A stretch of 38,580 nucleotides of DNA from a virus, in the IMG/VR virus record IMGVR_UViG_3300033134_000008, positions 1 through 38,580 of that record; one strand, 5' to 3'. The notes under the pieces are model-generated. The model was not told where the DNA came from. It searched no databases and was given only the letters and a program-made list of their open reading frames with translations. This document shows positions 3,232 through 36,818 of this stretch, one piece after another; positions within the stretch are counted from its first letter, which is position 1, and each line of letters starts with the position of its first letter. The position numbers were made by a program, and so were the translations under genes.

Positions 3232-3414
3232 ATGGCGAATTTTATAAAGCGAGCAATCAAAAAACCTGGCCAGCTTCATAAAGACCTAAAGATTAAAAAA
3301 GGAAAAAAAATTCCCATCGCAAAAATAAAGGCGGCCGCCAAAAAGAAAGGAAAAGTAGGACAAAGAGCGAGATTTGCTCTAACGCTTCAGAAGATTAGAA
3401 AAAAGAAAAAATGA
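3232..3414 (+). CDS. Small highly basic protein between terL and portal
   Basis: A 60-residue protein, over one third Lys/Arg, starting at ATG 3232 behind a GGGAGA site. It has an N-terminal IKRAIKKPGQLHKDL motif, then PIAKIKAAAKKKGKVGQRARFALTL, and a lysine tail. I recall similar short basic proteins in phage head modules but no proven function. The charge suggests nucleic acid or capsid-interior binding. It overlaps the portal start by 4 bp. Confidence 0.7.
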   Translation: MANFIKRAIKKPGQLHKDLKIKKGKKIPIAKIKAAAKKKGKVGQRARFALTLQKIRKKKK

Positions 3415-4889
3415 AGATAGACGGTATTTGTCAAAGATTTCAGCTTTCGTTTCCGGATTATTATACAGAAAGAGCCAGACGGCTTTCTGTTTTTGAGATG
3501 TTTTTGAATGGAGAGATTTACGATAATCTTTCTCCTTTTTATATGGAATACAACGGCTCTTCGGGTTATGTTCCCCTTTGCGAAAGAAAGCCAAGCATTA
3601 TTTTTAATATTTATGCCGTCATTGTTTCACAGATATGCTCTTTTTTGTTTGGAGACAATCATTTTCCATCAGTAAAATGCGACGAAAGCAATCATTCGGG
3701 AACGGCGGCGGTTTTGGAAAAAATAGCCGATCAGTCTTCATTAAAGCTAAAAATGATTAATGCGGTGAGAAGCGGCGCGGTTGGTAGCGTTGCTATTATC
3801 GTAAAATATATAAAAGGAAAATATTTATACGAGATACTTAAAACAAAATATCTTTCTCCGGTCTTTGAAGATTGCGATGAAAATACGCTTTCCTTTCTGA
3901 GAGAAAAAATATATTACTCTGGAGAGGAATTGTCTGAAAACGGATATAAAATACCGCCGGAAAATTACAATAAGTCATATTGCGTGATAAGGGAATGGAC
4001 GAATAACGCCGAGATATATTATCAGCCTTTTGAAAAGGGAGAAGACGGGGATGATAATTTTAAATTGCTAATAGACACGCAAAGAAGCTGTCAGCACAAT
4101 CTTGGCTTTATTCCGGTTGTATGGATAAAGAATCCTCACGAATCCAAAAGCTTTCAAGACGGTAGATGTCTTTTCGAGGACATCATCGATATCGGGATAG
4201 AAATTGATTATCAGCTAAGTCAGCATGGAAGAGGATTAAAATATAACTCAGACCCAACCCTTGTAATAAAAGACCCCGGTCGACTTGAGAACGAACAATT
4301 AATCAAGGGAACCGGCGCATTAATGCTTGGTCAAGATGGAGACGCAAAGCTCTTACAGATTGATGGGTCAGCCACAAAGGCAGTCATCGATTACGTAGAC
4401 AAAATTAGACAATTTGCGCTAGAAGTTATCAGAGGAGATCGGGGGAATCCCGATAAGCTTTTGTCTTCTCATTCTGGGCGCGCGCTAAAGATTTTAAATA
4501 AAGCGATCATCTCTCTTGTGAGCGAACTTAGAGTATCTTATGGGGATTTGGGGCTTAAAAAAATATATCAAATGATATTAAAAATAGAATCCTGCGAATC
4601 CATCGAAAAATTTGGAAGAGACTCTAAAATTGATTGTGATTCCTGTTGCGATCATCTCATGCTTGACTGGCCTTCTTTTTATGAGGAAACGGAAGAAGAA
4701 AAGCAAGCGTGTGCCAATACGCTAAAGACGTTAGCGGACGCAGAGATTTTAAGCAGAGAAACCGCCACCAAAGAAATATCTCAAAAATACAATATCACGG
4801 ATGTTGGCGCGGAAAGAACGGCAATAGAAAAAGACAAACAAGAAATTAAAGATCAGTCTCCGCAGATTAAAGAAAACATTAACCTATGA
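3411..4889 (+). CDS. Portal protein
   Basis: A 492-residue portal, the dodecameric ring through which DNA enters and leaves the head. Evidence is its position after terL, its length, and family-like segments: an N-terminal RRLSVFEMFLNGEIYDN..., a central LGFIPVVWIKNPHE followed by DIIDIGIEIDYQLSQHGRGLKYNSDP, and a C-terminal SHSGRALKILNKAI helix. The acidic, helical tail (EETEEEKQA) is typical of SPP1 gp6-like portals. Confidence 0.9.
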   Translation: MKIDGICQRFQLSFPDYYTERARRLSVFEMFLNGEIYDNLSPFYMEYNGSSGYVPLCERKPSIIFNIYAVIVSQICSFLFGDNHFPSVKCDESNHSGTAAVLEKIADQSSLKLKMINAVRSGAVGSVAIIVKYIKGKYLYEILKTKYLSPVFEDCDENTLSFLREKIYYSGEELSENGYKIPPENYNKSYCVIREWTNNAEIYYQPFEKGEDGDDNFKLLIDTQRSCQHNLGFIPVVWIKNPHESKSFQDGRCLFEDIIDIGIEIDYQLSQHGRGLKYNSDPTLVIKDPGRLENEQLIKGTGALMLGQDGDAKLLQIDGSATKAVIDYVDKIRQFALEVIRGDRGNPDKLLSSHSGRALKILNKAIISLVSELRVSYGDLGLKKIYQMILKIESCESIEKFGRDSKIDCDSCCDHLMLDWPSFYEETEEEKQACANTLKTLADAEILSRETATKEISQKYNITDVGAERTAIEKDKQEIKDQSPQIKENINL

Positions 4890-4900
4890 GGTAATTTATT

Positions 4901-5497
4901 ATGTCTGACGCAGATGCAACAGATGTAAAAGATTCAAAAAAGGCTGAAGCCCATACTGATTCAAGAGAAAATAATAGAGATGAAGATTTAAAGCTTGACT
5001 CAAAATCAATGGAAATGATAAGGGAACTTAGAGAAGAAGCAAAAGCAAATCGTCTTAAGCATAAAGCCGTAAAATCAGAATTTGATCTGTATAAATCAGA
5101 AGTTGATTCAAAAATAAAAACCATTGAATCCGAAAAGGAAACTTTAAATTCTCGGGTTCAAAAATTAACTTCTTTTGAGAAAAGGATAGTCGAGGCTGAA
5201 GTTAAAACAGAGGCTGTTCTTTTTGGCATTAAAGATACGGATTTGATAAAGCTTATAGATATTGAAGATATAAAGATATCAGAAGACGGCTCTATAGACA
5301 GGGAAGTCGTTAAAAATAAGATATCTGAGCTTAAGGAAAAAAAGCCTTTCCTTTTTGGGGAAGAAAAAAGAACCTTAACGTCTACAAATTCATCAATAAA
5401 AAATTCTCCTGAAAATAAAAAGCCCGATGCGCTTGCGATGACAGATTCAGAATATTCGGAAGCAAAAAAGAGACTTTTAACTAAACGATACAGATAG
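4901..5497 (+). CDS. Capsid scaffolding protein
   Basis: A 198-residue, very charged, mostly helical protein. Residues about 35-110 form a coiled coil (REEAKANRLKHKAVKSEFDL... VDSKIKTIESEKE). The segment after it (GIKDTDLIKLIDIEDIKISEDGSID, then ISELKEKKPFLFG) matches GP20-type scaffolds. These fill the prohead, guide shell assembly and leave before packaging. It lies directly between portal and major capsid genes, as expected. Confidence 0.85.
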   Translation: MSDADATDVKDSKKAEAHTDSRENNRDEDLKLDSKSMEMIRELREEAKANRLKHKAVKSEFDLYKSEVDSKIKTIESEKETLNSRVQKLTSFEKRIVEAEVKTEAVLFGIKDTDLIKLIDIEDIKISEDGSIDREVVKNKISELKEKKPFLFGEEKRTLTSTNSSIKNSPENKKPDALAMTDSEYSEAKKRLLTKRYR

Positions 5498-5547
5498 ATT
5501 CTAAAAGTTACAAAAAGGCCAGGTCGCCAACCCGAAAAGATAGATAT

Positions 5548-5583
5548 CCAATCGGAAATTAAATTTAATCAATTTCTAATTGG
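5548..5583 (+). promoter_or_regulatory. Imperfect hairpin over the capsid gene ribosome-binding site
   Basis: Segments 5548-5559 and 5572-5583 can pair (CCAAT with ATTGG, GAAAT with ATTTC, with two or three internal mismatches). The 3' arm ends in the GG that begins the GGAG ribosome-binding site of the major capsid gene (ATG 5593). It could tune translation of the most abundant late protein. It is inferred by eye only. Confidence 0.35.
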
Positions 5584-5592
5584 AGACTACCC

Positions 5593-6963
5593 ATGGGATT
5601 CGGTCCTTTACCACAAGCAGTTATAAACGCCATACAGCAGAATTTTCTGCAAAAAGAATTTCAAAAGCCTCTTGAATCTTCGCTAAAATACAGACTTTTA
5701 GCTGAGCGCATTGTTTTCCCGGGACGAATCGGTGATACAATCACGCAAACCCGCGTAGGCTTAATGATCCCAAATACTACGCCCCTTGATCCTTCAACAA
5801 ATACAAATCTTGATAACGGGTTAACCGCTCAAAATTACACTTCAGAACAGTATACGCTTGGCATCAATCAGTATGCCCAGCTTGCGCCCGACATAAATCT
5901 TATCGACGATGAAACCACAATCGCAAGGTTTTTGTTAAAAAATACTTATAACCTGGGATACGCTTCTTCTCAGACAACTGATAGGCTTTCAAAACAAGCC
6001 CTTTTTAACGCATACATGTCAGGCAATACCAGAATCACCGTAACGCTTGGCTCTCCAAACGTAACCGTCAACGTGGATGACGTGCGCGGATTTCAAACTG
6101 TCGTTGTCGGCGGAATAGTCACGCCGATCAGCAACACAAACCCTCTGCCAGTCACCATTAACGGAAGCGCATACAATATCGTTTCCTTTACCATTGACGG
6201 CACAAACACGTCAAGCGCAGCAATTACCGGCGGCCAATCCGGCACAATTACCGCATCCGCCGCAATCAGTGTAGCAAACGGAACCGCCGGAAATGCTGTG
6301 GTTGGTAATTTTGCGCCCACTATTTTAAGACCTAACGCAAGAGCGACAACCGCAGCTTTAATATCCGGCGATACGCTTTCAATGCCTATTCTTTTCAGCG
6401 CCGTAGGTCTTTTAAGAAGCAATGGGGTGCCGACGCTTAATGGATTTTATAATATTTACCTTGCGCCGAATTCCATGGTTCAGCTTTATAACGATCCTGA
6501 ATTCCAGATATTGAACCGCGGTGTTGGTACCGAAGACCCCGCTTACAAAAAACTTCGCGTGACTGAATTTTTGGATATGCGGTTCATCGAAACCACGGAA
6601 GCTTTTGTTCAGCCTGCCGGCAATGGGGTTGGCGTGACGGTTCAGCGTCCTATTGTTTGCGGAGCGGAATGTCTGGTTGAGGGTCATTTTGAGGCGGGTC
6701 AAGACGCTATTCTTGAAATGGCAAGAAAAGACGGATTTGCGGATATCTCTAACAGCGATGTCGGAGGGATTGTCGCCGGATATGAGGATATCTTTCTTTA
6801 TATGCGCCGTCCTTTAGATAGGCTCGGTCAAATAATCTCTCAGACTTCAAACTGGATTGGCGGATATACCGTCCCAACGGATGTGGGCACCACAAGCTCA
6901 ATTATCCCGACCGCCTCAAATGCTTACTACAAACGCGCCGTTGTCATTGAAACAGCTACCTAA
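5593..6963 (+). CDS. Major capsid protein
   Basis: A 456-residue shell protein, identified by position after the scaffold and by its segments: an N-terminal arm (QAVINAIQQNFLQKEF), TQTRVGLMIPNTTPL, LAPDINLIDDETTIARFLL, and a C-terminal DIFLYMRRPLDRLGQI. Residues about 145-240 are a Thr/Ser/Val-rich, all-beta stretch (for example TVTLGSPNVTVNVDDV and AITGGQSGTITASAAI). It looks like an inserted surface domain in an otherwise HK97-type fold. The 95-bp gap before it holds a possible control hairpin. Confidence 0.9.
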   Translation: MGFGPLPQAVINAIQQNFLQKEFQKPLESSLKYRLLAERIVFPGRIGDTITQTRVGLMIPNTTPLDPSTNTNLDNGLTAQNYTSEQYTLGINQYAQLAPDINLIDDETTIARFLLKNTYNLGYASSQTTDRLSKQALFNAYMSGNTRITVTLGSPNVTVNVDDVRGFQTVVVGGIVTPISNTNPLPVTINGSAYNIVSFTIDGTNTSSAAITGGQSGTITASAAISVANGTAGNAVVGNFAPTILRPNARATTAALISGDTLSMPILFSAVGLLRSNGVPTLNGFYNIYLAPNSMVQLYNDPEFQILNRGVGTEDPAYKKLRVTEFLDMRFIETTEAFVQPAGNGVGVTVQRPIVCGAECLVEGHFEAGQDAILEMARKDGFADISNSDVGGIVAGYEDIFLYMRRPLDRLGQIISQTSNWIGGYTVPTDVGTTSSIIPTASNAYYKRAVVIETAT

Positions 6964-25992: not shown

Positions 25993-26428
25993 CTTTTTTT
26001 ATTCCCAAATAATCCTCAATAATCAATATTCCCTCATCAACGCTTCTAATGCAGGCGACCCTATATCCTCGGGAATTCATTAAAATTTTCCATCTTTCTT
26101 GCTCTTTGGACATTCTTCCTTTTGACGTTTTTATCTCTAACCAAAACCCGCTTTCTGTATAAATTACGCCGCGTTTATTCAGCCTCGCAATGGGAATCGC
26201 AAGAAAAAGATCGCTAACGCCCTTTTTAACGCCTTCTCTTTTAAGTCTCGAAGCCTCTTTTTTGTTTCTCCAGCCGCCGTTTGGTATGGCAATAAGAAAG
26301 TCGCCGACAAAATTAGCGCGATAATCATCTTCATAGCGACGCTCATATTCTTTATGCGAAGCCCACTCAACAATTGCCTGCTGTATTTGAGTTTCTGATG
26401 GTTTATATGCGCAAGATGATGATTTCAA
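25979..26428 (-). CDS. VRR-NUC domain nuclease
   Basis: A 149-residue protein with the PD-(D/E)XK-type VRR-NUC pattern: an N-terminal SETQIQQAIVEW helix, FLIAIPNGGWRN, KREGVKKGVSDLFLAIP (Asp acidic residue), GFWLEIKTSKGRMSKEQERW (E.K pair) and GYRVACIRSVDEGI. Phage VRR-NUC proteins act as DNA junction or repair nucleases. It sits in the same operon as Bet and the DNA methylase and overlaps its neighbours. Confidence 0.88.
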   Translation of the reverse strand: MKSSSCAYKPSETQIQQAIVEWASHKEYERRYEDDYRANFVGDFLIAIPNGGWRNKKEASRLKREGVKKGVSDLFLAIPIARLNKRGVIYTESGFWLEIKTSKGRMSKEQERWKILMNSRGYRVACIRSVDEGILIIEDYLGIKKDGKV

Positions 26429-27777
26429 GTTTCTTCTCCGGTCTCATATTCTTTTTCTGTTTTTTTAAAAGTCCATGCAATAGCTTCACGCGGTGTTTTT
26501 ATGTCAGGCGGGACACGTAAAAAATAATTCTTAAAGCTTCCGTCTGGCTCTCGCGTGCTGTTTATGACGCTTACCATAACTATTGGCTCATCTCCTTCAA
26601 TTTCTTTTCTATATAGAACTCTTTCTCTGCCGTGTATATCAAAATCTTTTGAAATTACATCTGCACCAGAATCCTTTAAATATCTTCCTCTTGAATCTCT
26701 ATCATATCTTTCTATCATCACCCTTCTTATTTCTGCGTTTTTTTCTTTTGTTATTAAGTCTATCGTTATTTTTTCTGGGTTTTTAATCACATATTCGGGA
26801 ACCCTAACGCCGTGAACAGCATATATAGACCATCCGTCAGGATACATAACTGCCGCATCTACCAAAGAGTGAAGCCTGCCAGTTTCGTCTCTTTTTAGAA
26901 TTGAATGCCTTTCTGATGCAAAGCATATATTTTTGTGAGGCAAAATCCATCCGCAATTTTTTGACAGCTCAATAAGTCCTCTAATTTTTTCTGTTTCAGA
27001 TTTCAAATTAAGCTCTTCTCTAAAAAAGCTGTAAAACGCCATAACCTCTGAATCATGCTGTCCATAACAAGAATCCCCGACGGAATCCCAGACGGAATCC
27101 CCGACGGAAGCCCAGACGGACTCCCCGACGGAATCCCAGACGGAATCCCAGACGGAATCCCAGACGGAATCCCAGACGGAATCCCTGACGGAATCCCTGA
27201 CGGAATCCCTGGCGGAATCCCTGACGGAATCCCTGACGGAATCCCTGGCGGAAGCCCAGACGGAAGCCCAGACGGAAGCCCTGACGGAAGCCCTGACGGA
27301 AGCCCCGACGGAATCCCTGACGGAAGCCCCGACGGAAGCCCAGACGGAAGCCCTGACGCAAGACCTGGCGGAAGCCCTGACGGAAGCCCTGACGGAATCC
27401 CCGACGGAATCCCAGACGGAAGCCCTGACGGAATCCCAGACGGACTCCCCGACGGAATCCCAGACGGAATCCCAGACGGAATCCCAGACGGAATCCCTGA
27501 CGGAAGCCCCGACGGAAGCCCTGACGGAATCCCAGACGGAAGCCAGGATATTTTCCTTAATGATAATTGCTCTCGTTAATCCCTGAGATAATGGAGAACC
27601 GCACCAAACTATTTTCTTTGGTGGACTTAACCCAGTAAGAACATAAGATTCATTAATCGCCGATTCCGCTTTTTTTCTGTCTGCAGGAAGCGTGCATAGT
27701 CCTATTTCCGTCCATTTTTTAACATATTCTGGAAATAATGCAATCTGTCTGTCCGTTAAATGCTCAATCTTGTACAT
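26425..27777 (-). CDS. DUF6745-like protein with 39 tetrapeptide repeats
   Basis: A 450-residue protein. The N-terminus (about 1-78) and the C-terminal 210 residues (PHKNICFASERHS, MYPDGWSIYAVHGVRVP, then IVMVSVINSTREPDGS) look like DUF6745, an uncharacterised phage and bacterial family. Between them, residues about 79-236 are 39 copies of a four-residue unit, (A/D/E)S(V/A)(W/R/G), ending CYGQHDSE. This is not the five-residue pentapeptide repeat. The copy number can be expected to vary. It overlaps its neighbours by 4 and 14 bp. Confidence 0.72.
   Translation of the reverse strand: MYKIEHLTDRQIALFPEYVKKWTEIGLCTLPADRKKAESAINESYVLTGLSPPKKIVWCGSPLSQGLTRAIIIKENILASVWDSVRASVGASVRDSVWDSVWDSVWDSVGESVWDSVRASVWDSVGDSVRASVRASARSCVRASVWASVGASVRDSVGASVRASVRASVWASVWASARDSVRDSVRDSARDSVRDSVRDSVWDSVWDSVWDSVWDSVGESVWASVGDSVWDSVGDSCYGQHDSEVMAFYSFFREELNLKSETEKIRGLIELSKNCGWILPHKNICFASERHSILKRDETGRLHSLVDAAVMYPDGWSIYAVHGVRVPEYVIKNPEKITIDLITKEKNAEIRRVMIERYDRDSRGRYLKDSGADVISKDFDIHGRERVLYRKEIEGDEPIVMVSVINSTREPDGSFKNYFLRVPPDIKTPREAIAWTFKKTEKEYETGEET
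27071..27544. repeat. 12-bp minisatellite encoding tetrapeptides
   Basis: Thirty-nine and a half units of 12 bp (plus-strand core GACGGAATCCC or GACGGAAGCCC, with variants). Units differ at a few positions that switch W, R, G and A/D. It is the largest tandem array in the window. It lies in frame inside the gene at 26425-27777. Plus-strand frames over it (GIPDG repeats) are shadows. Confidence 0.9.
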
Positions 27778-32826: not shown

Positions 32827-32997
32827 TTAAATAATGATCCCGTTTTCAAATTTAAAATCTTCTAACGCCGCCTCTCTTATTTCTTTTTCGCACTTGTCGC
32901 AAAAATTAACGCTAAATATATTTCCTGCCCGATCCTTTCTTCTTGCTATAAGCTCATTTCCGCAATGTGCGCACTCAAGAAAAAATTCAAGTTCCAT
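32827..32997 (-). CDS. Small zinc-ribbon protein
   Basis: A 56-residue protein from ATG 32997, with AAGGAG 8 nt upstream. Contains CAHCGNEL and FCDKCEKEI, two CxxC pairs 23 residues apart, so one zinc site. Overlaps the next zinc protein gene. Function unknown. Confidence 0.65.
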   Translation of the reverse strand: MELEFFLECAHCGNELIARRKDRAGNIFSVNFCDKCEKEIREAALEDFKFENGIII

Positions 32998-33214
32998 ACG
33001 GATAACTCCTTGCGTCATTCATAGACATAACCCTTTCTCTTTCATCAAGCGATCTTTCAAGGCTATCGAAATTATCTTCTTCATGATAATGACTTTTTGA
33101 TTTACATTTTTTACACTCGCTGACAAATATTATTAAGCATTCTCCATCAGATGTAATTTTTGTGTTTGCGTTTAAGAATTCTCCGCATTCTTCGCACGCA
33201 GCATAAATTTCCAT
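32987..33214 (-). CDS. Small zinc-ribbon protein
   Basis: A 75-residue protein with CEECGEF near the start and CKKCKSKSHYH further on. The end is basic and charged. It overlaps the other zinc-ribbon gene by 11 bp. A pair of small zinc proteins next to CsrA is unusual. Confidence 0.62.
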   Translation of the reverse strand: MEIYAACEECGEFLNANTKITSDGECLIIFVSECKKCKSKSHYHEEDNFDSLERSLDERERVMSMNDARSYPYGT

Positions 33215-33240
33215 GACTCAATCTCCATAATTAAAAAAGC

Positions 33241-33374
33241 GGAGCGATCTTGGAATCGAACCAAGTCCAGACATCGGTTTTTCCGGCGCACGCGTGCGTG
33301 TACAAATACAAAGTTTAAATGTCTGCGCGTCATAACAAACCCCAATGCGTTTCCCCATGAACGTCCATCGCTCC
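33241..33374 (-). ncRNA. tRNA-like structured RNA (putative)
   Basis: On the minus strand GGAGCGAT (33367-33374) pairs with ATCGCTCC (33241-33248). Immediately before the 3' arm is a canonical T arm, CTTGG-TTCGATT-CCAAG (33249-33265). A D-like hairpin CGTT...AACG (33348-33363) with a GGGG loop follows the 5' arm, and a 7-bp stem, CAGACAT (33319-33325) with ATGTCTG (33268-33274), joins them with an insert of about 44 nt. I cannot fit a normal anticodon arm. At 134 nt it is longer than a tRNA. It may be a degenerate tRNA, a tmRNA-like or other tRNA-like element, or an attachment site. Confidence 0.42.
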
Positions 33375-33440
33375 ATCTACCAGAATTTATTGCGCGCTTC
33401 CGGCAAAGCGCTCCCGAGGCTCTAATAATCGCCCTGCAAT

Positions 33441-33707
33441 TCAATAACCAAATCCCGTAAGCCTTTTAGATAATGTATCCATATTATTGCTGTGAAGTTC
33501 TTCCATTTTATAAGCGTTTGTCTTTAGGTTAAGCCTCCTGCATGTGTCAGCCCATCGCTCAGATAGCCAGCAAAAATACTTATAGCCACCTCTGTCTCTT
33601 CGCCATGTTTCTTTAACGCTTTTCCCTTTTGTTTCTATTACATAAGCGATAAAGTAAGGATTAACATGCAAGCGTCCTGCTATTTCATTAAGCTCTGTAG
33701 AAGTCAT
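33441..33707 (-). CDS. Unknown 88-residue protein
   Basis: Several start codons lie together (TTG 33713, ATG 33710, ATG 33707); the AGGGAG site suits the last two. N-terminal TELNEIAGRLHVNPYFIAYVIE could be a small DNA-binding helix pair. C-terminal part basic. Function unknown. Confidence 0.58.
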   Translation of the reverse strand: MTSTELNEIAGRLHVNPYFIAYVIETKGKSVKETWRRDRGGYKYFCWLSERWADTCRRLNLKTNAYKMEELHSNNMDTLSKRLTGFGY

Positions 33708-33739
33708 CATCAAACTCCCTAAATATCAAAAAGTTCAGT

Positions 33740-33785: not shown

Positions 33786-34442
33786 TTAATCAGTTTGGTT
33801 TCGAACGAGTTCTATTAATTTTTCTGAAATCATTACCCAAAATCTTTCTGTGACGCTGTCATCGTTGTTATAATTACAGGAATCACAAACCTCTCTGGCG
33901 GCATTGCGTACAATGGGATTATATATATCCGTAAAAGCCCAAAAAATAGTCCGAACGACATCCAAATAACGACGGAGAAAATTAACGTTTTTATAACAAC
34001 GATTATAACGATTTGAAAGATTGGCGTTATTGGGATTTTTAAAAAAATCAATAGCCAAATCTATCGTTTTTTTTAAGCCATAAAATTTTTCTTCCTGTAA
34101 TTTTTTTAAAATATATTCAAGAAGAAATATAAGAAAATGCGTTCTTATTTTTTCTAAATCAGAGTCTACGTTTATTGCTTTAAATAGTCTTAGCGTAAAT
34201 TCTTTAGACTCTATATTTGGAAGCCTTTTAAATATTTCATCTTGTAAATACGCAAACCACACAGGCAATCCGATAAGATCTTCATAATCTTCATGATATG
34301 AAGAATGCAAGACACACCCAATAGAGCCCCCCTTTCCGTCCTCCCAATATTTCCCCTTAATAATCTCGTCCGCATCCATATGTGATTTAATCTGATCAAT
34401 ATACTTCTGCTTCAATGCCAAATCCCCGTGAAACGCTTTCAT
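33786..34442 (-). CDS. Conserved protein of unknown function
   Basis: A 218-residue protein, the first gene of the leftward early operon. The N-terminus (MKAFHGDLALKQKYIDQIKS, KGKYWEDGKGGSIGCVLHSSYHEDYEDLIGLPVWFA) belongs to a family I recall in phages and bacteria without known function. The second half is helical. It follows a leader of about 120 nt after the promoter at 34568-34596. Confidence 0.7.
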   Translation of the reverse strand: MKAFHGDLALKQKYIDQIKSHMDADEIIKGKYWEDGKGGSIGCVLHSSYHEDYEDLIGLPVWFAYLQDEIFKRLPNIESKEFTLRLFKAINVDSDLEKIRTHFLIFLLEYILKKLQEEKFYGLKKTIDLAIDFFKNPNNANLSNRYNRCYKNVNFLRRYLDVVRTIFWAFTDIYNPIVRNAAREVCDSCNYNNDDSVTERFWVMISEKLIELVRNQTD

Positions 34443-34621: not shown

Positions 34622-35020
34622 TTATTTTATTAGGGCAGAAATGAAATCTTGACGACAATCTGAATCTATTTTAATTCTCAGTTCCCTATCGCCGCTGGGC
34701 AGCTTTCTTATAGAGATAAAGTCATTGACGGCGGAGATTGTTTTATAGGCGTCATTATCTATCTTTAGCGCGTCTGGATAATATCTTTTACTATCAAATC
34801 CGCCTGTCATTTCTCCGTACTCATCGCCCATTTTAAGCCACTCATAAGGCACATCAAGCTTCTCAGCAATCCCCACCAGCGTAGAGCCTCTGGGCACCTT
34901 TCTGCCGAGGCAATATTGAGAGACCATTGCCTTTGTAATCCCCGTTTGCTCCGCCAGAGCGCTTTGACTAAAGCCTCTGTAGTCTAAAGCCTTTTTTAGC
35001 CTGTCTTTTAAATCACTCAT
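34622..35020 (-). CDS. CI-like XRE-family repressor
   Basis: A 132-residue protein from ATG 35020, with GGAG upstream. Residues about 16-50 are a helix-turn-helix (GFSQSALAEQTGITKAMVSQY). The C-terminal part (DKRYYPD... FISIRKLPSGDRELRI) has no peptidase active-site pattern, so cleavage like lambda CI is not indicated. Position between left and right early operons fits the lysogeny repressor. Confidence 0.82.
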   Translation of the reverse strand: MSDLKDRLKKALDYRGFSQSALAEQTGITKAMVSQYCLGRKVPRGSTLVGIAEKLDVPYEWLKMGDEYGEMTGGFDSKRYYPDALKIDNDAYKTISAVNDFISIRKLPSGDRELRIKIDSDCRQDFISALIK

Positions 35021-35044
35021 AAGTTTCTCCAAAGTTATAAAAAT

Positions 35045-35152: not shown

Positions 35153-35563
35153 ATGGAAATCCATTGTTTAATTTCAGCGGAGAACGCAAAAATGATAGAG
35201 CTTGTAAAAGTACTGGATAGTTTTCATGACTGCTTGCGAGCAGCAATACGGGAAGCCGCAACTCTCAAGATACAAGAAAAGCAGTTTTATTTGGAACTTG
35301 GAATAGATCAGGGAAATTGGTCAAGGATGATCACAGGGAAAGCCAATTTTCCTCCAGAATTAATCCCGAAGTTTTGCCAAATTGCCCAAAATAATCTGCT
35401 AATTCACTGGCTTGCATATCAGCGCGGTTTTGAACTTCGCATCATCCCAAAAGAGCTTGAAGAGAGACTTAGCGAAAAAGAGGCGCAGCTTGAAGAAAAA
35501 GACCGAGAGATTACCTACCTTAAGAGCCTGATTTCAGTCAAAAAAGAGGAGGTTAAGGAATAA
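35153..35563 (+). CDS. Cro/CII-like regulator with coiled-coil tail
   Basis: A 136-residue protein from ATG 35153, with AGGAG 9 nt upstream; a TTG upstream is weaker. The middle (QFYLELGIDQGNWSRMITGK...) reads as a helix-turn-helix, followed by a coiled coil (LEERLSEKEAQLEEKDREIT) that would make dimers. As first gene of the right operon it would regulate early transcription. Confidence 0.7.
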   Translation: MEIHCLISAENAKMIELVKVLDSFHDCLRAAIREAATLKIQEKQFYLELGIDQGNWSRMITGKANFPPELIPKFCQIAQNNLLIHWLAYQRGFELRIIPKELEERLSEKEAQLEEKDREITYLKSLISVKKEEVKE

Positions 35564-35847
35564 TGGCGGCAAAGCCCTATTTTAAGTTTTATTTTGGCGA
35601 CTATCTGGCTGATACGATGCACTTAAGCACGCGGGAGCACGGCGCATATCTTCTCCTGATCGCCGCTTATTTTCATACGCAATCCCCTCTCCCCGATGAT
35701 AATAAGCGACTCTCAAACATCGTTAAGGTCAGCCCAAAAGTATGGGGTCAAATGCGTTTGACCCTTTCCAAAATGTTCGTCATAAAAGACGGTTTTTGGT
35801 ACCACAACATAATAGAAAAAGAACTGAAAGGGGAGAGCGGAAAATAA
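35563..35847 (+). CDS. DUF1376-like protein, short
   Basis: A 94-residue protein (MAAKPYFKFYFGDYLADTMHLSTREHGAYLLL...) equal to the N-terminal domain of the next gene's product. Both begin MAAKPY. It lacks the linker and C-terminal part. DUF1376 proteins occur in phage replication modules. The stop overlaps the next start (TAATG). Confidence 0.78.
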   Translation: MAAKPYFKFYFGDYLADTMHLSTREHGAYLLLIAAYFHTQSPLPDDNKRLSNIVKVSPKVWGQMRLTLSKMFVIKDGFWYHNIIEKELKGESGK

Positions 35848-36818
35848 TGGCGGCTAAACCTTATATGCCTTTTTACTTCGCCGACTACGATGCTGACACC
35901 TATGATCTGACGACTCTTGAGCATGGCGCATACTTTTTACTCATCAAAACTTACTGGCAAAGCGGTAAGCCTTTACCCGCAAATGAAAAAAAATTAGCCG
36001 CAATTGTGAAACTTTCTGAAAAAAAATTTCAAAAAGTGATTTCAAGAATAAAAGAATTTTTTATCGTTAATGAAAAATTTTGGGTGCACCCGCGTCTTGA
36101 AAAAGAACTGGCTGAATTTCAAAAAAAGTCCGATTTGGCGCGCTCGGCGATTAATTCAAGATGGAAAAAAGAGGGAAAAAATGCCCCAAAAAATTCATAC
36201 GGACGTATTACGGACGTATTTCATTCGAATTACGTTCGTAATACGGACGTAATACCATCAGATACAGATACAGAAGCAGACACAGAACTTGAGCAAGAAA
36301 TACCCAAACATAAAAACTTAAAAACTGAGGATTCTCTTGTGTGTATTAAGCGCGCGCGTGCTCATATAGTTGTTTCCGAATTAACTCCTCCCGAATCTCA
36401 GGAACCTGACCCAAAAACACAAACACAAAAAAACCAAGAAAAAGAAAATTCTGAAAATCTGAATTTGATTCAAAGCTACATCGACATCCTGCTGCCCCGA
36501 TTCCAGTCGCTTCACTTTTCCGGCTTTTCAAAAAAAGCGTCGGCGATGATGGCGGCATGGGCAAAGCTTGGCGTGCTGCCTGAGGACGTACTTGAAGCGA
36601 TAAAGTTTTGCGAGCAGCGGGGAGACCACGTCACCTCGCCAGCGTGGTATGCGCAAGACGCAATAAATTTTTTTGAGGAGAGAACGAAGCTTGGAAGTTA
36701 CCGCATCCGCGGATCGCCGTCGTCGCAAAAAAAATCTAAACGAGATTTGAGGAATGAAGAGAACAGATTGAAGATTGAAAAATTTTTGAAAGAGGAAAGT
36801 GAAGATGCAAAGAGGTGA
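35847..36818 (+). CDS. DUF1376 replication-type protein
   Basis: A 323-residue protein with an N-terminal DUF1376 winged-helix-like domain (about 1-90, FYFADYDADTYDLTTLEHGAYFLL), a low-complexity linker (about 105-215) and a C-terminal helical domain (MMAAWAKLGVLPEDVLEAIKFCEQRG...). With the loader and DnaB genes just downstream, it is probably an initiator, like lambda O in layout. The linker DNA contains phased repeats (36198-36251) that may be the origin. Confidence 0.75.
   Translation: MAAKPYMPFYFADYDADTYDLTTLEHGAYFLLIKTYWQSGKPLPANEKKLAAIVKLSEKKFQKVISRIKEFFIVNEKFWVHPRLEKELAEFQKKSDLARSAINSRWKKEGKNAPKNSYGRITDVFHSNYVRNTDVIPSDTDTEADTELEQEIPKHKNLKTEDSLVCIKRARAHIVVSELTPPESQEPDPKTQTQKNQEKENSENLNLIQSYIDILLPRFQSLHFSGFSKKASAMMAAWAKLGVLPEDVLEAIKFCEQRGDHVTSPAWYAQDAINFFEERTKLGSYRIRGSPSSQKKSKRDLRNEENRLKIEKFLKEESEDAKR
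36198..36251. repeat. Iteron-like repeats in the DUF1376 gene (possible origin)
   Basis: Four 10-mers of the palindrome-like form TACG(G/T)(A/T)CGTA start at 36198, 36209, 36231 and 36242, spaced 11, 22 and 11 bp. The skipped slot at 36220 has a weak match. Three are identical (TACGGACGTA) and one is TACGTTCGTA. The 11-bp phase puts sites on the same helix face. As in oriLambda they lie within the initiator gene's linker. An A/T-rich stretch follows at about 36300. Confidence 0.55.

Follow-up and report, generated by a model that had tools for sequence, protein, structure and literature searches.

A tRNA-shaped element without a canonical anticodon arm in the early operon of a tailed phage, and over-long tRNA-like RNAs of similar design in other phages

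What kind of RNA, if any, is encoded by a structured stretch of 134 nt that separates two early genes of a tailed phage and resembles a tRNA in its upper half? The window, that is the whole stretch of DNA analysed here (38,580 bases, an IMG/VR virus record), is assigned to a tailed phage by its terminase, portal, sheath and baseplate genes. Its terminase is nearest to those of phages of Limnohabitans, Acidovorax and Bordetella (42–48% identity). The early operon is on the minus strand, downstream of a CI-like repressor gene (34622–35032), and includes genes for a CsrA-like regulator and a RecT-type annealing protein. Within this operon a gap of 226 nt separates a small gene, for whose product the search returned no relatives, from the next gene. 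The element lies in this gap, 26 nt ahead of the start codon of the next gene. The first-pass annotation had offered four readings for it: a degenerate tRNA, a tmRNA-like domain, an RNA-processing signal or an attachment site.

The features of the locus are as follows.
33441..33713, minus strand: preceding small gene, 90-residue protein, positive codon score
33411–33394, minus strand: upstream hairpin GCGCTT-TGCCGG-AAGCGC
33218..33376, minus strand: 52-residue ORF over the element, judged spurious (negative codon score, no Pfam match)
33241..33374, minus strand: 134-nt tRNA-shaped element, found with a T-arm and acceptor descriptor
33367..33374, minus strand: 5′ strand of the acceptor-type helix, GGAGCGAT, pairing over 8 bp with ATCGCTCC
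33326..33363, minus strand: "D-like hairpin" of the minimum-energy fold, not above chance
33346..33355, minus strand: D-loop-like GGGAAACGCA, D stem poorly formed
33325–33319 / 33274–33268, minus strand: second stem of 7 bp, CAGACAT/ATGTCTG, pair probabilities 0.87–0.99
33249..33265, minus strand: T arm with a standard T loop
33241..33248, minus strand: 3′ strand of the acceptor-type helix, ATCGCTCC, directly after the T stem
33233..33240, minus strand: GC + TTTTTT tail directly 3′ of the acceptor helix, a weak terminator-like feature
32987..33214, minus strand: next gene, 75-residue protein with CxxC pairs, positive codon score

The proposal that 33215–33440 is noncoding was supported, every frame having a negative codon score where nearly all neighbouring genes score positive. 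The 52- and 90-residue ORFs that run over the element were rejected, since the codon score gives no coding signal and neither has a Pfam match. The G+C content of the element is 51%, against an operon mean of 37%. A CsrA sponge was considered because of the CsrA-like gene downstream, and was not supported: the gap holds 8 GGA motifs against a mean of 4.5, and about 10% of operon windows are equally high.

Other parts of the window were recorded in passing. Two overlapping plus-strand ORFs (35563–35847 and 35742–36818) both match an N-terminal DUF1376/primosomal domain, the short copy preceding the full one as after a tandem duplication. The early operon also encodes a DUF6745 protein (26425–27777, minus strand). 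The protein encoded at 33786–34442 has homologues in contigs L002, L003 and L004 (at about 5430–5730) with long alanine-rich tracts, written in different triplet repeats (GGC-, GCT- and GCC-type); the copy in the window is devoid of such a tract.

Architecture of the element and comparison with chance

Read 5′ to 3′ on the minus strand (33374 to 33241), the element consists of GGAGCGAT, 101 nt of interior, the T arm CTTGG TTCGATT CCAAG and ATCGCTCC, followed by GC and six T. A perfect T arm adjoining an 8-bp acceptor-like stem, the central claim of the first-pass annotation, is indeed present. The two stems form a stack of 8+5 = 13 bp in which all pairs are perfect, with pair probabilities of 0.92–1.0. 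A descriptor made of general tRNA features rather than of this site (T loop, 5-bp T stem, 7-bp acceptor, at most one G-U pair) matched one site in the window, the element, in three registers. The same descriptor matched in only 1 of 200 dinucleotide-shuffled windows, and a stricter form in none of the 200. A similar descriptor spanning 95–150 nt gave 0 matches in 0.98 Mb of reversed phage sequence.

The second stem noted earlier is also there, although taken alone it reaches only a borderline p of about 0.05 against shuffles. It encloses 44 nt and ends 2 nt ahead of the T stem, a position best read as that of a giant variable arm, or else of an enlarged anticodon arm. The "D-like hairpin" did not hold up: it is at chance level and competes with the D-loop-like GGGAAACGCA, which matches the D loop of E. 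coli tRNA-Leu at 7 of 9 positions (p 0.01–0.02) and aligns with the tRNA-Leu-like GGTAGACGCA of other phages. The hairpin just upstream of the element (33394–33411) was found as described.

Such an arrangement might arise by accident, if a hairpin resembling a T arm happened to be flanked by complementary strands in the early-operon gap. The folding energy of the whole element is ordinary (z −1.0, with 33 of 200 shuffles equally good), as an accident would predict. However, the rarity of the descriptor in shuffled and reversed sequence and the additional match in the D loop make chance a very improbable explanation.

No CCA is encoded at the 3′ end of the element. The T run that follows is of a common kind, TTTTTT occurring 124 times on the minus strand of the window, and a terminator search called none at this tail. 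An intrinsic terminator was rejected because the acceptor helix is long-range and is not a short G+C-rich hairpin before the T run.

The element shares with canonical tRNAs a T arm with a standard loop and an acceptor of 7–8 bp. However, it contains no 5-bp anticodon stem with a 7-nt loop and a readable anticodon, and a canonical tRNA was rejected. With default settings ARAGORN reported neither a tRNA nor a tmRNA at the element, in agreement with the earlier remark that an ordinary anticodon arm is missing. Neither ARAGORN -m nor the Rfam tmRNA models gave a match, and the tmRNA reading is not supported. Rfam as a whole gave no gathering-level match, and none of relevance at E values up to 10. 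The attachment-site reading fared no better. A search of 84,980 genomes with the 3′ end of the element returned two stretches, neither of them a tRNA by ARAGORN, and no integrase was found among the annotated proteins of the window.

When introns were allowed, ARAGORN proposed a tRNA-Val(CAC) with an intron of 46 nt, so that the element could be a tRNA with a small anticodon-loop intron, spliced to a normal tRNA. An RNA of another contig (L087:11224–11346, plus strand) resembles a tRNA-Leu(UAA) whose anticodon loop contains an insert of about 40 nt; this insert can form a hairpin and is below the size of group I introns. However, the D arm called in the element is weak, the insertion point (32/33) is unusual, and the intron option is permissive, having proposed unlikely genes in test loci as well. 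Moreover, splicing of introns of this size is not known in phages. We consider a spliced tRNA highly unlikely.

Over-long tRNA-like RNAs in other phages

BLAST of the region against phages returned only short matches to tRNA 3′ ends and no T4-like record, and against nine related contigs a single chance match, inside a gene. A search by neighbouring proteins found no close relative of the phage; the distant relatives that it found have neither a comparable T arm nor a match to the covariance model R1 described below. In one contig, a degenerate tRNA-Ile-like stretch of about 112 nt with a CCA end (L003:6291–6402, plus strand) lies downstream of the homologue of the protein at 33786–34442; it was not counted as support, being recognised neither by Rfam nor by R1.

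A scan for the letters of the acceptor and T arm found one other contig, L035, an independent viral contig. The RNA of 119 nt that it carries (L035:7456–7574, minus strand) matches the element in its 8-bp acceptor and T arm. Its D arm (TGGCGGAGTGGTAAACGCA) is that of a textbook tRNA-Leu; an arm of 8 bp presents CUA in its loop, and the variable arm measures 7 bp. The CUA in this enlarged anticodon-type loop may permit an amber reading, or none. This architecture suggests that the element be read as a class II tRNA shell in which GGGAAACGCA is the D loop and the 7-bp stem the variable arm. As in the window, the gene after the L035 RNA encodes a small CxxC protein. The same contig encodes an adenylosuccinate synthetase-like protein (3347–4456, minus strand) that appears PurZ-like by eye, and its phage may perhaps contain 2-aminoadenine.

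A wider set was obtained by scanning viral sequences for T arms separated by 58–88 nt from a tRNA-Leu-type D loop, a spacing greater than any normal tRNA allows; the acceptor was not part of the pattern. The scan matched 81 uncultured viral contigs. Among 50 distinct interiors, 35 were flanked by a 7-bp acceptor in register, against 1.5 with shuffled and 7.5 with permuted flanks. In an alignment of 25 of these RNAs, picked for having an acceptor, all 7 acceptor pairs change on both sides, with a covariation score of 0.52 compared to 0.19 for shuffles and at most 0.13 for slid registers. The RNAs of the wider set are 95–150 nt long, with tRNA-Leu-like ends, including a tRNA-Leu-type D arm (GGCGGAA..GGTAGACGC, 3-bp D stem), and unrelated interiors that cannot be aligned between groups. 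Rescanning the fetched loci without fixed letters yielded further unique RNAs of 97–146 nt. The family sequences were sought in cultured phages and none was found.

The acceptor strand CCTGACT (AGUCAGG) is common to 34 of 67 unique long RNAs and is also present in nine further shorter ones, whereas none of the acceptors of ordinary tRNAs from these contigs recurs more than twice. Several phages carry multiple AGUCAGG-type copies (six in L074, four in L045, three each in L078 and L115), which share acceptor and T arm and differ in unrelated interiors. In L074 (734–4500, plus strand), L045 (2743–3850, minus strand), L069, L078 and L115 such RNAs are interspersed with normal tRNAs. RNA ligase and polynucleotide-kinase-like genes lie just downstream of the tRNA-like RNA in L111 and L078, as would be expected if these RNAs were connected with tRNA cutting and repair. 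Nested tRNA-like RNAs with two T arms, the outer acceptor enclosing the inner T arm, were seen in L011 (2426–2554, minus strand) and L105 (7398–7572, plus strand).

The element in the window has the same general plan, an in-register acceptor and T arm around an over-long interior. In comparison with the tRNA-Leu-type D arm of the wider set, the letters of its D loop are partly kept and its D stem is poor. The L091 RNA is laid out as the element is, with a 13-bp stack and a giant arm that ends beside the T stem. Covariance model R1 placed the held-out element exactly, at 25.5 bits (E 2.9e-4; next best 12.8 bits), a result that is not a fair test, as the pattern used to fetch the sequences of R1 contained T-arm letters of the element itself. 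Model R2, made from sequences obtained without these letters, recovers L035, L064, L091, L067 and L103 and misses the element; with filters off, it yields only an 11-nt match to the T loop (E 8.8). Because R1 was ascertained on the letters of the element and R2 misses it, we claim a shared design rather than common descent: the element resembles the wider set as an outlier. The failure of R2 is what a chance origin would also predict, but the better-formed L035 RNA with the same acceptor and T arm argues against it.

The element could instead be the decaying pseudogene of a class II (Ser/Leu type) tRNA with an insertion, devoid of function. Its degenerate D loop and D stem, and its status as a lone copy and an outlier, would agree with this. 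However, mere decay fits less well with a perfect acceptor and T arm of 13 bp, and the middle is not tRNA-like, as in many of the other phage RNAs. Moreover, the compensated acceptor changes in the wider set are unlike neutral decay. Of the first readings, a degenerate tRNA survives, but a functionless relic is improbable.

A candidate non-decoding RNA and its known counterparts

The locus thus combines a tRNA-like upper half with the absence of a canonical anticodon arm and of coding signal, and RNAs of the same design exist in other phages. We moderately favour the view that the element is a tRNA-derived, non-decoding phage RNA, processed from the early transcript and serving as a stable RNA or decoy; its expression, processing and function are what we infer. 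In this view the acceptor helix, the T arm and remnants of a class II D loop descend from a tRNA whose functional anticodon arm has disappeared, and the sizeable structured interior, most readily taken for a giant variable arm, was acquired. An intact tRNA upper half is what RNase P, tRNA 3′ endonucleases and the CCA enzyme recognise. Transcribed together with the early operon, the element may be recognised through this half by host RNase P and tRNA 3′ endonuclease and released; its excision would at the same time cut the operon mRNA in two between 33441 and 33214. The product would be a stable non-translating RNA that either binds tRNA-handling proteins, as a decoy or sponge, or presents its interior. 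An RNA-processing signal, as first annotated, is among the readings that survive.

The fold might also be a mere cut site that separates early mRNAs, the released RNA having no role. tRNAs punctuate mitochondrial and some phage transcripts, and the element lies between operon genes, just ahead of a start codon; many of the other phage RNAs, too, are closely followed by an ORF. However, the downstream genes differ between phages, and punctuation does not call for the terminators of their own, the tRNA clusters or the multiple copies seen for some of these RNAs. We regard punctuation alone as rather unlikely. The variety of downstream genes and the repeated copies in single phages make action in trans more likely than regulation of the next gene in cis.

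More tentatively, phages may carry a class of natural "tRNA scaffolds" that has gone undescribed: a fixed tRNA-Leu-like shell, often with AGUCAGG, around hypervariable interiors of 55–85 nt, present several times per genome, both made and stabilised by the tRNA machinery of the host, and working either as decoys or in trans by way of their interiors. The element would be a diverged single-copy member with the acceptor GGAGCGAU. No description of such a long class was found in the literature searched, mostly outside subscription journals. If long non-decoding shells with one acceptor and varying interiors are common, a job outside translation is suggested, for example as a bait for tRNA-cutting defences or as a carrier of regulatory RNA, and they would provide many natural variants for testing function. 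This is also a warning that genes of this kind are missed or misannotated by standard tRNA finders.

Among known RNAs, class II tRNAs (tRNA-Leu/Ser) share with the element the acceptor helix, the T arm and letters of the D loop, and with L035 and the wider set the full tRNA-Leu-type D arm. Unlike them, the element lacks a canonical anticodon arm, is 134 nt long instead of about 85–90, and has a stack of 13 rather than 12 bp. tRNA-Sec (SelC) has an 8+5 bp acceptor/T stack, a G after the acceptor and a long variable arm, all of which recur in the element. However, the element has neither a UCA anticodon arm nor a 6-bp D stem, and Rfam does not find SelC there. In bacterial tRNA-Sec a stack of the same 13 bp impedes the binding of EF-Tu, and this length would fit a role outside translation. 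The element resembles tmRNA in its tRNA-like end and in an expanded domain replacing the anticodon arm, but has no room for the usual pseudoknots.

The closest known counterpart is the species 1 RNA of phage T4 (rnaC, 139 nt), which is likewise phage-encoded, of similar length and non-decoding, with a perfect T arm beside the closing stem. It differs in its location in a tRNA cluster, its interior and its imperfect acceptor, and it is a proven stable RNA whereas the element is known from sequence alone. Its match to R1 is weak (20 bits, E 0.05) and falls short of sequence homology. For the species 1 and 2 RNAs of T4 no function is known (PMC3014915), and the function of species 1 is likewise given as unknown in PMC9697503. 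The pseudo-tRNA tRNA-Other of Bacillus cereus, a non-translating tRNA-like element within a larger regulatory RNA (PMC3399842), is comparable by description, and is cellular and borders a genomic island. Published pseudo-tRNAs such as this one show that a tRNA-like shell can be put to regulatory use (PMC3399842).
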